This document shows positions 39,411-45,223 of a stretch of DNA of 64,000 nt, piece by piece. Below the pieces are notes generated by a model that saw only the letters and a list, made by a program, of their open reading frames with translations, made no database searches and was not told where the DNA came from. Where the stretch lies: contig NZ_CP061281.1 in the NCBI RefSeq assembly GCF_014621695.1, positions 1,736,001-1,800,000 on the forward strand, read 5' to 3'. A program made the translations under genes and the position numbers. Every line of letters begins with the position of its first letter. The stretch's first letter is position 1. This DNA comes from Streptomyces xanthii (lineage in GTDB: Bacteria; Actinomycetota; Actinomycetes; Streptomycetales; Streptomycetaceae).

Positions 39411-42191
<2,781 letters not shown>

Positions 42192-42192
42192 C

Positions 42193-42211
42193 TAAGGTAA
42201 GGCTTAGTTAG
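42193..42211. promoter_or_regulatory. Candidate iron box (DmdR/IdeR type) upstream of acnA
   Basis: The 19-bp segment beginning TAAGGTAAGGCTTAG matches the actinobacterial iron-box consensus TWAGGTWAGSCTWACCTWA at 16 of 19 positions. A second inverted pair GGTAAGG (42196) / CCTTACC (42217) overlaps it. It lies 68-86 bp upstream of the acnA start, a promoter position. Confidence 0.5.
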
Positions 42212-42266
42212 GTAACCCTTACCGTCGAAGCGGCGAGGTCGCGCGACTGCGGCACGCCTCGGCAGA

Positions 42267-42287
42267 TATCTCGATGTCGAGATAACT
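42267..42287. promoter_or_regulatory. Perfect palindrome upstream of acnA, shared with the XRE-MurA promoter
   Basis: TATCTCGATGTCGAGATA (42267-42284) followed by AC. The pattern ATCTC-N6-GAGATAAC recurs at 43667-43684 directly before the XRE-MurA gene. Confidence 0.6.
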
Positions 42288-42395
42288 CTAGTACATCACC
42301 GAGCGGTGCCATCAAGCGGCGCCACCCGGCCCTTCACCGCGCGCCCACCCGCCCAGCCTTCCCATCGTCGTACGGCACCTCGCGCTCCACCAGTG

Positions 42396-43064
42396 CTACG
42401 GCCCGGACGTCGCCTTCAGGCCGCCGTCATCGGCGCAACGGAGCCGCTTGGCGAGGGCCAGCGAGAAGGAGTGAGCGACGGTGACGTAGGCACGCTTCAG
42501 CCGCTTCGGGTCGCCATCGGACTCGTGGATCATGTCCGGGTTCTCGACGTCGACAGTGACGTGGGCCGCCCCGGAGGCGGGCTCGCCCTCGGCGCGGCAG
42601 GCGAAGGAGACGAAGGCGCCGTCGGTCGCGCCGCCGGCCTGCTCGCCCATCGGGAACAGGGTGTACTTCGAGGCGGGGGGCCCGTCCGGGGCGGTGTCCC
42701 ACGTCCACCAGGTGACGCGTAGCTCGTCGACGGGGGAATCGTCCGGCGGGTAGATCCGGCAGATGTCGCCCTTCGCTCTGGCCGTGGAGAGGACCGTGCC
42801 GGACAGCTCCGCGGCGGCGGCCGCCACTGTGGTCTTCTTGTTCGTGGGTTCGAACCGGTCGGAACCGGTGATCGCTTCGAGGGCCTCGCCGGCGCCCTTC
42901 GACAGCGCCGAGCCGCCGCACAGCTGCTCCGCACTCGCGACGTAGCCGGGTGTCGGCGCCGCGGCCCCGTCGCCGCCCGAACCGCAGCCCGCGGCGGCGA
43001 GCGCGAACCCGCAGGCCACGAGTACGCCACGGCGCCCACGCGCCCGAGCACCTCTGCTCACCAT
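42396..43064 (-). CDS. Uncharacterised lipoprotein
   Basis: A 222-residue lipoprotein; ATG 43064 follows GGAAGGACTTCG. Signal peptide with lipobox LAAAGCGS, then a globular domain with three further cysteines (EQLCGGSAL, GDICRIYPP, FACRAEG), and one near the end (RLRCADDG), likely two disulfides. Similar DUF3558-like lipoproteins are common in Streptomyces; I am not sure of the family. It lies upstream of acnA on the same strand with a 270-bp gap. Confidence 0.72.
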   Translation of the reverse strand: MVSRGARARGRRGVLVACGFALAAAGCGSGGDGAAAPTPGYVASAEQLCGGSALSKGAGEALEAITGSDRFEPTNKKTTVAAAAAELSGTVLSTARAKGDICRIYPPDDSPVDELRVTWWTWDTAPDGPPASKYTLFPMGEQAGGATDGAFVSFACRAEGEPASGAAHVTVDVENPDMIHESDGDPKRLKRAYVTVAHSFSLALAKRLRCADDGGLKATSGP

Positions 43065-43159
43065 CGAAGTCCTTCCGCGTGCGGACACGTGCGTGGGGCC
43101 GAGAGATTGACGACCGAGAGACATACGACAGGGCTACCCTCCCCCGCAGGGGGTGGACC

Positions 43160-43507
43160 GTGAATGTGACGCTCGGCGCACTCGTGGCCGCCGCGGGAAT
43201 CGCGCTCGCCGCGCTCGGGCTGCCGGCCGGCGGGCGGGTGAGGCGGCCCTTCCATGCGCGGCGCGCGCACGCGGCAGAACGGCGACGGTATCCGGTGGCG
43301 CTGAGGCGGGCCTGCGACATGGCGATCGCCGAGGCGCGGCGGCGGGCGGGGGCCGGGGAGCCGGCGATCGTGCGGACGGACGCGGTGCTGGAGCTGATGC
43401 GGGGGCACTTCGGGTTTCCGTACGCGCGGCGGGAGGATGCGGCGGTGGCGCTGTACGGGCGGTTCCGGGAGCGAGGGTGCGCGGTGGACTGCGTGACGGA
43501 CGCCTGA
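43160..43507 (+). CDS. Small membrane-anchored protein of unknown function
   Basis: A 115-residue protein starting at GTG 43160 behind a CAGGGGGTGGACC ribosome site. One N-terminal helix (LGALVAAAGIALAALGLPAGG) is followed by an Arg-rich cytoplasmic domain (RRACDMAIAEARRRAGAGEP, MRGHFGFPYARREDAAVAL). Divergent from the lipoprotein gene and upstream of the XRE-MurA gene. No family recognised. Confidence 0.6.
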   Translation: MNVTLGALVAAAGIALAALGLPAGGRVRRPFHARRAHAAERRRYPVALRRACDMAIAEARRRAGAGEPAIVRTDAVLELMRGHFGFPYARREDAAVALYGRFRERGCAVDCVTDA

Positions 43508-43666
43508 CGCCACCCCCTCCGACCGGCGATGGCGGGCGCGACACTCCATCAGATCCGCATATGACCGGAATCAACCACTTCCGCCACTAAGGTCACACCG
43601 GTCACGAGTGCGGTCGCTGAGCCTCCGTCAAGCCCCTTCACCCGAACGGGCCCCACGGAATGCGTC

Positions 43667-43684
43667 ATCTCATATCTGAGATAA
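43667..43684. promoter_or_regulatory. Operator-like palindrome overlapping the XRE-MurA promoter
   Basis: ATCTCATATCTGAGAT (43667-43682) followed by AAC. It overlaps the first base of the -10 box TAACCT (43682-43687) and ends 11 bp before the ATG, a classical repressor position. The same ATCTC-N6-GAGATAAC pattern occurs upstream of acnA. Confidence 0.6.
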
Positions 43685-43696
43685 CCTGCCGCTATG
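43682..43696 (+). promoter_or_regulatory. Leaderless promoter -10 box
   Basis: TAACCT, six bases, then ATG 43694; no ribosome site is present. Confidence 0.5.
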
Positions 43697-45223
43697 GCAG
43701 ACGACTACCTCGTACGCATCGGCAAGCTCATCCGTGACGCCCGGCAGCACCGGGGCTGGACGCAGGCACAGTTGGCCGAGGCACTCGGAACCAGCCAGAG
43801 CGCAGTCAACCGCATCGAACGCGGCAACCAGAACATCAGCCTTGAGATGATCGCCCGCATCGGCGAGGCACTCGACAGCGAGATCGTGTCGCTCGGCTAC
43901 TCCGGCCCGATGCACCTGCGGGTCGTCGGCGGCCGCCGCCTGTCCGGCGCCATCGACGTCAAGACGAGCAAGAACGCGTGCGTGGCGCTGCTCTGCGCCT
44001 CCCTCCTGAACAAGGGCCGCACGGTGCTGCGCCGCGTCGCCCGCATCGAGGAGGTCTACCGCCTGCTCGAGGTCCTCAACTCCATCGGTGTCCGCACCCG
44101 CTGGATCAACGACGGCGTCGACCTGGAGATCGTGCCGCCGGCCACGATCGACATGGGGTCGATCGACGCGGAGGCGGCCCGCCGCACCCGCTCGATCATC
44201 ATGTTCCTCGGCCCGCTGCTGCACCGCCTGGACCACTTCAAGCTGCCGTACGCGGGCGGCTGCGACCTCGGCACCCGCACGATCGAGCCGCACATGATCG
44301 CGCTGCGCCGCTTCGGCCTCGACATCACGGCGACCGAGGGGCTCTACCACGCCGAGGTGCAGCCGGACGTGGCCCCGGACCGCCCGATCGTGCTGACCGA
44401 GCGCGGCGACACCGTGACGGAGAACGCGCTGCTCGCCGCGGCCCGCCACGACGGCACGACCGTCATCCGCAACGCCTCGTCCAACTACATGGTCCAGGAC
44501 CTCTGCTTCTTCCTGGAGGCGCTCGGCGTCCGCGTCGACGGCATCGGCACGACCACGCTGACCGTGCACGGCGTCCCGCACATCGACGTCGACGTCGACT
44601 ACTCCCCCTCCGAGGACCCGGTCGAGGCGATGAGCCTGCTGGCCGCGGCCGTCGTCACCGAGTCCGAACTCACCGTGCGCCGCGTGCCGATCGAGTTCCT
44701 GGAGATCGAGCTGGCCGTCCTGGAGGAGATGGGCCTCGACCACGACCGCTCCACGGAGTACGTCGCCGACAACGGCCGTACGCGCCTGGTCGACCTGACG
44801 GTCCGCCCCTCCAAGCTGGAGGCGCCGATCGACAAGATCCACCCGATGCCGTTCCCGGGCCTGAACATCGACAACGTCCCGTTCTTCGCGGCGATCGCGG
44901 CCGCCGCCCAGGGGCAGACCCTCATCCACGACTGGGTCTACGACAACCGCGCGATCTACCTCACCGACCTCAACCGCCTCGGCGGCCGCCTCCAGCTCCT
45001 CGACCCCCACCGCGTCCTGGTCGAGGGCCCGACCCGCTGGCGCGCCGCCGAGATGATGTGCCCGCCGGCCCTGCGCCCCGCGGTCGTCGTCCTCCTCGCC
45101 ATGATGGCGGCGGACGGCACGTCGGTGCTGCGCAACGTGTATGTCATCAACCGGGGTTACGAGGATCTGGCGGAGCGGCTCAACTCGGTGGGGGCGCAGA
45201 TCGAGATCTTCCGGGACATCTGA
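43694..45223 (+). CDS. murA2: XRE helix-turn-helix / UDP-GlcNAc 1-carboxyvinyltransferase fusion (MurA2)
   Basis: A 509-residue protein. Residues about 8-63 are an XRE helix-turn-helix (GWTQAQLAEALGTSQSAVNR). Residues about 72-509 are a MurA/EPSP-type domain: substrate Lys-Asn pair K93-N94 (KTSKNACVALL) and the catalytic Cys190 in PYAGGCDLGTRTIEPH, at the position of E. coli Cys115. MurA transfers enolpyruvate to UDP-GlcNAc, the first step of peptidoglycan synthesis. Retention of the active-site residues suggests it is catalytic; the DNA-binding domain suggests regulation as well. Apparently leaderless, with an operator-like palindrome on its promoter. Confidence 0.92.
   Translation: MADDYLVRIGKLIRDARQHRGWTQAQLAEALGTSQSAVNRIERGNQNISLEMIARIGEALDSEIVSLGYSGPMHLRVVGGRRLSGAIDVKTSKNACVALLCASLLNKGRTVLRRVARIEEVYRLLEVLNSIGVRTRWINDGVDLEIVPPATIDMGSIDAEAARRTRSIIMFLGPLLHRLDHFKLPYAGGCDLGTRTIEPHMIALRRFGLDITATEGLYHAEVQPDVAPDRPIVLTERGDTVTENALLAAARHDGTTVIRNASSNYMVQDLCFFLEALGVRVDGIGTTTLTVHGVPHIDVDVDYSPSEDPVEAMSLLAAAVVTESELTVRRVPIEFLEIELAVLEEMGLDHDRSTEYVADNGRTRLVDLTVRPSKLEAPIDKIHPMPFPGLNIDNVPFFAAIAAAAQGQTLIHDWVYDNRAIYLTDLNRLGGRLQLLDPHRVLVEGPTRWRAAEMMCPPALRPAVVVLLAMMAADGTSVLRNVYVINRGYEDLAERLNSVGAQIEIFRDI

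Follow-up and report, generated by a model that had tools for sequence, protein, structure and literature searches.

The window, that is, the whole 64-kb stretch of DNA analyzed here, carries the aconitase gene acnA on its minus strand and, on its plus strand, the gene murA2, which encodes XRE-MurA, a protein in which an N-terminal helix-turn-helix (HTH) is joined to a MurA domain. A palindrome lies upstream of each of the two genes. The features of this region are as follows.

39411..42125, minus strand: acnA, aconitase (Pfam PF00330/PF00694; TIGR01341; start codon deduced from its distance to AAGGAG).
42193..42224, no strand assigned: partly conserved block flanked by the TamR site and acnA, possibly a DmdR1 iron box region.
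42267..42284, minus strand: TamR-type operator of acnA, TATCTCGACATCGAGATA, an 18-mer of the type of the tamR/tam intergenic site, adjoining the probable –10 region.
42285..42290, minus strand: probable acnA –10 hexamer TAGAGT, in a conserved block (TACTAGAGT) beside the operator; function inferred.
43638..43653, no strand assigned: BldM-WhiI-type activator site, TCACCCGAACGGGCCC on the plus strand; read as its reverse complement, the published Group II motif is matched at 11 of its 12 specified bases.
43667..43682, plus strand: predicted XRE-MurA operator, ATCTCATATCTGAGAT, recognized by its conservation and by co-variation with the HTH.
43682..43687, plus strand: TAACCT, the –10 hexamer of a promoter predicted to be leaderless, with 6 bases separating it from the ATG.
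43694..45223, plus strand: XRE-MurA (murA2), with a Cro/C1-type HTH (residues ~8–66) and a MurA domain (~75–505).
43796..43819, plus strand: predicted recognition helix QSAVNRIE (codons 35–42), containing the co-varying Ser36 and placed by a structure model.

The XRE-MurA protein is 93–96% identical to named Streptomyces records and matches the Pfam families HTH_3 (1.6e-15) and EPSP_synthase; its matches of known structure (PDB) include MurA, C.AhdI, and HipB, the HTH being similar to HipB and to controller proteins. It falls below the threshold of the MurA equivalog TIGR01072 (306 versus 392.7 bits) and passes that of the subfamily NF006873 (318.1 versus 297). MurA is the target of fosfomycin, and its catalytic residues are Lys22, Cys115, Arg120, Asp305, Arg331, and Arg397 (E. 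coli numbering). The main catalytic positions are kept in XRE-MurA when it is aligned with solved MurA chains, and the motifs are found in all 80 Streptomyces loci. In 72 genes from the family of genome G131, the Lys and Arg331 are present in all 72, the Asp in 71, the Cys loop in 65, and a strict Arg397 in 20. One gene of the XRE-MurA family, in G496 (L412, L451), has neither the HTH part nor the operator, both of which its relative G178 keeps.

The two palindromes follow the pattern ATCTC-N6-GAGAT, with ATCTCGATGTCGAGAT at 42268–42283 on the acnA side and ATCTCATATCTGAGAT on the murA2 side. These are the only two exact matches in the window, compared with a mean of 0.03 expected from 100 shuffles, a single one of which contained two matches. 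A previous interpretation of this DNA, the sequence-only reading, had placed a palindrome upstream of both genes and about 140 bp from acnA, and on both points it holds: acnA probably starts with the GTG at 42125, following the AAGGAG, and this start is 141 bp from the palindrome. It had also treated the two sites as copies of one operator. While the ten arm bases are indeed identical, the inner six bases read GATGTC at acnA and ATATCT at murA2, each inner sequence is conserved separately among the Streptomyces loci, and the two never swap places in the exact sites listed for 80 named loci. The trailing AAC, formerly counted as a shared part of the operator, has a separate origin at each gene: at murA2 it is the start of the –10 hexamer, whose third base is variable, and at acnA it belongs to the complement of a conserved, –10-like TAGAGT on the opposite strand. 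Given their different and separately conserved inner bases, the two similar palindromes most likely serve two different regulators. The bare arm pattern was discarded as a genome-wide search pattern. It occurs at 8 exact places in the whole 8.35-Mb genome, and the six remaining places contain neither the acnA nor the murA2 inner sequence, four of them (L001, L004, L005, L006) lying inside high-GC3 open frames; as such, the pattern is uninformative and pools unrelated sites.

Based on the sequence comparisons described below, we propose with a probability of roughly 0.82 that the palindromes are separate operators sharing their outer arm bases, with TamR acting at acnA and XRE-MurA binding at murA2 and repressing its own gene.

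The acnA site reads in full TATCTCGATGTCGAGATA. Its pattern, TATCTYGAN{0,4}TCRAGATA, is found at two places in the genome, upstream of acnA and in the ~90-bp divergent promoter region between genes for a MarR-family protein and a methyltransferase, where the site (L010) is TATCTTGACGTCGAGATA, a palindrome of the same type. From this layout and from a review (PMC5487221), we take these genes to be tamR and tam. TamR of S. coelicolor is a MarR-family protein that acts as a repressor of aconitase and of further genes of the citric acid cycle. The review describes its repression of aconitase and states that citrate and trans-aconitate release it; that TamR controls aconitase is already known. As in that system, a MarR-type gene diverges here from a presumed tam gene, with the same type of palindrome in between and at acnA. 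In layout and palindrome type, the features compared, we found no difference. In an alignment of 62 Streptomyces loci and the window, the block TACTAGAGT is conserved beside the operator.

Within flanks of up to 5 kb, 62 of the 80 named Streptomyces loci contain an exact copy of the TamR-type 18-mer, and the 18-mer is present in 55 of 61 genomes; in the other 18 loci the exact copy may be absent or may lie beyond this flank. Outside the genus the picture is less tidy, since only 32 of the 74 XRE-MurA genomes were found to have the exact 18-mer although 72 have a TamR-like gene. By tblastn, acnA was found next to 38 of 62 TamR-type sites, tamR plus tam next to 12, tam alone next to two, and none of these next to 10, in a sample that includes the window and the tam locus and represents part of the matches, usually the first place per genome. 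In seven genomes (G037, G040, G044, G045, G056, G058, and G059), all of which contain TamR, acnA is located beside a TamR-type site and the nearest MurA is only 30–34% identical to XRE-MurA, although the best match in G056 begins at residue 17, which leaves room for a very distant HTH-MurA there. Since these seven genomes carry the site without a close XRE-MurA, the latter is not needed for it.

These results bear directly on the idea that XRE-MurA binds both sites and thereby couples aconitase to cell-wall precursor supply, as the sequence-only reading had suggested. The common arms ATCTC/GAGAT and the proximity of the two sites in Streptomyces speak for such a coupling. It is nevertheless very improbable, given the TamR-type site at acnA in the seven genomes without close XRE-MurA and the inner sequences that do not swap. 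Moreover, the two sites lie as close as ~190 bp in some of the named Streptomyces loci and more than 4.6 kb apart in others. In G228, finally, the murA2 site (AACTCATATATGAGTT) has changed to AACTCA on both arms, whereas the acnA site (TATCTTGACGTCAAGATA) keeps TATCTTGA and does not track the altered operator, which argues against XRE-MurA as its binder. The acnA site thus belongs to the TamR set, and the proposed tuning of aconitase by XRE-MurA is not supported. Binding by a different regulator had been named beforehand as a finding that would speak against a single binder, and for the acnA site the comparisons point to precisely such a regulator.

At murA2, the operator was found in all 80 named Streptomyces loci, as ATCTCATATCTGAGAT in 68, as ATCTCATATGTGAGAT in six, and as four other variants in the remaining six. 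In each of these 80 loci it runs into a TANNNT hexamer that is followed, after 6 or 7 bases, by the start codon (TAACCT in 34, TAGCCT in 21, TAACGT in 11, TACGGT in 10, and others in four). Because of this short distance between hexamer and start codon, the murA2 mRNA is predicted to be leaderless. Within one mismatch, 33 of 37 Streptomyces genomes contain the operator at one place only, always at the XRE-MurA gene. For the remaining genomes, variants are present at this gene in G024 and G008 and a two-mismatch site in G028, while G017, where the gene begins in a stretch of N and no site was seen, was left unjudged. Elsewhere in the 37 genomes there are nine murA2-type sites with two mismatches. 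G041 (L166) and G049 (L161), two f3 genomes that lack a close XRE-MurA, also contain exact copies of the 16-mer ATCTCATATCTGAGAT, and the 16-mer alone is therefore not diagnostic.

We also examined the conservation of the murA2 operator outside the genus. Of 394 genomes in the class, 114 encode XRE-MurA (E<=1e-90), and the upstream regions compared were those of all 74 XRE-MurA genomes outside the genus of the window, supplemented by a further 69 in the family of G131. When a site is counted as an operator if it matches in 11 or more of 16 positions, 72 of the 74 genomes have one, as do 137 of 143 overall, so that together with the Streptomyces loci 217 of the 223 XRE-MurA genes counted are preceded by it. 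In a control test, this level was reached by 136 of 142 genes, compared with 1.5% of 5680 shuffles and none of 74 far-upstream stretches. If the flanking bases are included, 115 of 136 non-Streptomyces sites show the geometry TATCT-N8-AGATA. In Streptomyces, the first T of this geometry precedes the operator in only six of 80 loci; a C is found in 65, and also in the window.

Within a set of 74 genes from the family of G131, the HTH and the operator change together. The recognition helix is disrupted or missing in five genes, those of G461, G510, G323, G131, and G496, and no operator precedes any of them (G510, G323, and G131 belong to one genus). Of the 69 genes with an intact TSQ[SG] helix, only that of G448 lacks it, and the operator of its sister G493 is degenerate. 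A second change affects Ser36: its replacement by Gly is accompanied by AACTCA..TGAGTT, a T-to-A change on both arms, in 11 of 11 cases, compared with two of 57 with Ser (G450 and G488). On a quick tree of the MurA domain, there are three helix changes and four operator losses, with two supported independent pairs, both concordant. For the Ser/Gly and arm changes, which number six each, there are four supported independent pairs; the two change together in 3.7 of these on average and never in opposite directions. The Fisher values of 5e-11 and 4e-7 ignore kinship, and the independent pairs are too few for significance in a sign test. Outside the family of G131 there are exceptions, in which AACTCA occurs together with Ser36: on the left arm in all 20 f21 genomes, G313, and G331, and on both arms in G140. 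The joint loss in G496 could reflect the decay of one region. Taken together, autoregulation of XRE-MurA is well supported by comparative sequence evidence. The sequence-only reading is supported in part: autoregulation is supported by the operator in 80 of 80 and 137 of 143 cases and by the coupled changes of helix and operator in one family, and the scheme of one operator, one regulator, and two targets, with its link to acnA, is not supported.

If TamR bound both palindromes, murA2 would be part of the TamR regulon. The outer bases are common to the two sites, and a TamR-like gene (E<=1e-30) accompanies XRE-MurA in 72 of 74 non-Streptomyces genomes; those of G440 and G280, at only 46% and 55% identity, are perhaps paralogues. 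This possibility is remote nonetheless, because G053 and G331, with neither TamR (E<=1e-30) nor a TamR-type 18-mer, retain AGCTCATATCTGATAT and AACTCATTAATGATAT, respectively, before XRE-MurA. The sequence CTTGAYRTC, found in 28 of 30 tamR/tam intergenic regions, is absent from the murA2 sites; the murA2 core CTCAYA, in turn, occurs in none of these regions on one strand and in three of 30 on both strands. The co-variation with the helix likewise points to XRE-MurA.

A third regulator, conserved across actinobacteria, could also be the protein that binds at murA2. Binding by XRE-MurA is a prediction, the pattern is broken in G448, and the exact 16-mer occurs in two genomes without a close XRE-MurA. 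We nevertheless consider such a regulator unlikely, though less so than the two common binders discussed above. With up to one mismatch allowed, 33 of 37 Streptomyces genomes have the site just once, as befits a local autoregulator, and the site is lost and varies together with the HTH encoded by the same gene.

Least probable of all, and hardly credible, is that the murA2 palindrome is a σ factor or promoter element and not an operator. Its fixed spacing to the abutting –10 region would fit this explanation, as would the listing of the gene (SCO5998) as SigB-dependent in S. coelicolor (PMC8346170). However, a σ element would be neither a palindrome nor almost confined to a single gene, as this site is. 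In G323, G131, and G510, where the HTH has changed, the palindrome is gone and TACGAT is still located 7 bases before the start. We also rejected the SigB promoter of SCO5998 as the promoter described here, because the sequence printed for it in that article is a different one.

A second input to murA2 is suggested upstream of the predicted XRE-MurA operator, where the Group II motif TGnnCCGnnCGGGTGA of BldM-WhiI is matched at 11 of 12 bases (43638–43653). A match of at least 9 of 12 bases was found in 69 of 80 Streptomyces loci and lies between –56 and –60 in 67 of these; shuffles reach this level in 10.6% of cases and random segments in 7%. Of the 74 other genomes, seven reach 9 of 12 and none reaches 10, which is no more than expected by chance. 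In S. venezuelae, a DNase I footprint of BldM-WhiI has been published for murA2 (sven5810; PMC4125116), and from its name we take sven5810 to be XRE-MurA. The murA2 promoter is probably a target of the BldM-WhiI Group II regulon here as well, with the difference that the BldM-WhiI site is found in Streptomyces, whereas the XRE-MurA operator is also present in other genomes. Overexpression of murA2 had no whiI-like effect on exploratory growth in a later study (PMC11005364).

Outside Streptomyces, the predicted XRE-MurA operator mostly resembles that of HipB, which likewise has a Cro/C1-type HTH and a site over its own promoter. The geometry TATCY-N8-RGATA is seen in most XRE-MurA sites outside Streptomyces, while most Streptomyces sites lack the first T; the HipB consensus given in PMC3376134 is TATCC-N8-GGATA. 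In contrast to HipBA, the HTH of XRE-MurA is fused to MurA and not paired with a HipA kinase, and there is one operator compared with four for HipBA (PMC3920265). Since XRE-MurA scores below the HipB family cut-offs (58.2 versus 71.65 bits for TIGR03070 and 20.1 versus 79 for NF007271), we suggest by analogy only that it works like HipB, and do not assign it as HipB. The helix at residues 35–42 was taken from a model predicted from a single sequence (mean pLDDT 74). A fold search with the HTH model gave no E value below 0.007, weakly supporting a HipB-like HTH, and a search for HipB contact residues found nothing.

PutA, NadR, and BirA are fusions of an enzyme with an HTH that control their own genes. 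XRE-MurA likewise combines a metabolic enzyme and a DNA-binding domain in one chain; it differs in that its enzyme domain is a peptidoglycan precursor enzyme, for which a sensing role is hypothetical. Neither an HTH-MurA fusion nor its autoregulation was reported in the titles and abstract openings searched, the subscription literature being mostly outside this search, and within the same literature we did not find the murA2 operator in print.

The following model would combine these observations. TamR would bind the acnA site and keep aconitase repressed until citrate or aconitate accumulates. At murA2, a dimer of XRE-MurA would bind via its HipB-like HTH and cover the promoter spacer as far as the –10 box, thereby repressing its own leaderless promoter; both the binding by XRE-MurA and the repression through it are predicted from sequence. 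In Streptomyces, murA2 would be switched on in the course of development through the BldM-WhiI site just upstream and kept to a limited level through the XRE-MurA site. The MurA domain might modulate operator binding. An attractive single-regulator link between the cell wall and the TCA cycle is thereby replaced by two links that can each be tested, and we note as a caution that nearby palindromes with common arms need not share one regulator. Since the operator appears to be recognized by a DNA-binding domain that is part of the same chain as MurA, it becomes directly testable what the second MurA does in actinobacteria.

Some further observations were made in the course of this analysis. Perfect ATCTCATATATGAGAT palindromes precede open frames in the f3 genomes G038, G046, and G043 (L158, L164, and L165, around position 1501), which are without a close XRE-MurA. 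They are possibly a look-alike operator of another regulator and were set aside as such. Most genomes with these palindromes contain nothing close to XRE-MurA; in G051, a small contig does encode one. TamR-type 18-mers of the sequence TATCTTGAGGTCGAGATA at L133–L138, likewise in f3 genomes and around position 1501, may mark a further TamR target, and searches with acnA, TamR, Tam, and XRE-MurA as queries found none of these adjacent. Between the two palindromes of the window lies an open frame of 242 amino acids with a lipoprotein-like start (42396–43124, minus strand), which has no Pfam or NCBIfam match at E<=0.001. The partly conserved block at 42193–42224 matches a DmdR1 iron-box consensus weakly at best (13 of 19), and a DmdR1 site is predicted between SCO5998 (MurA2) and SCO5999 (acnA) in PMC12161575.
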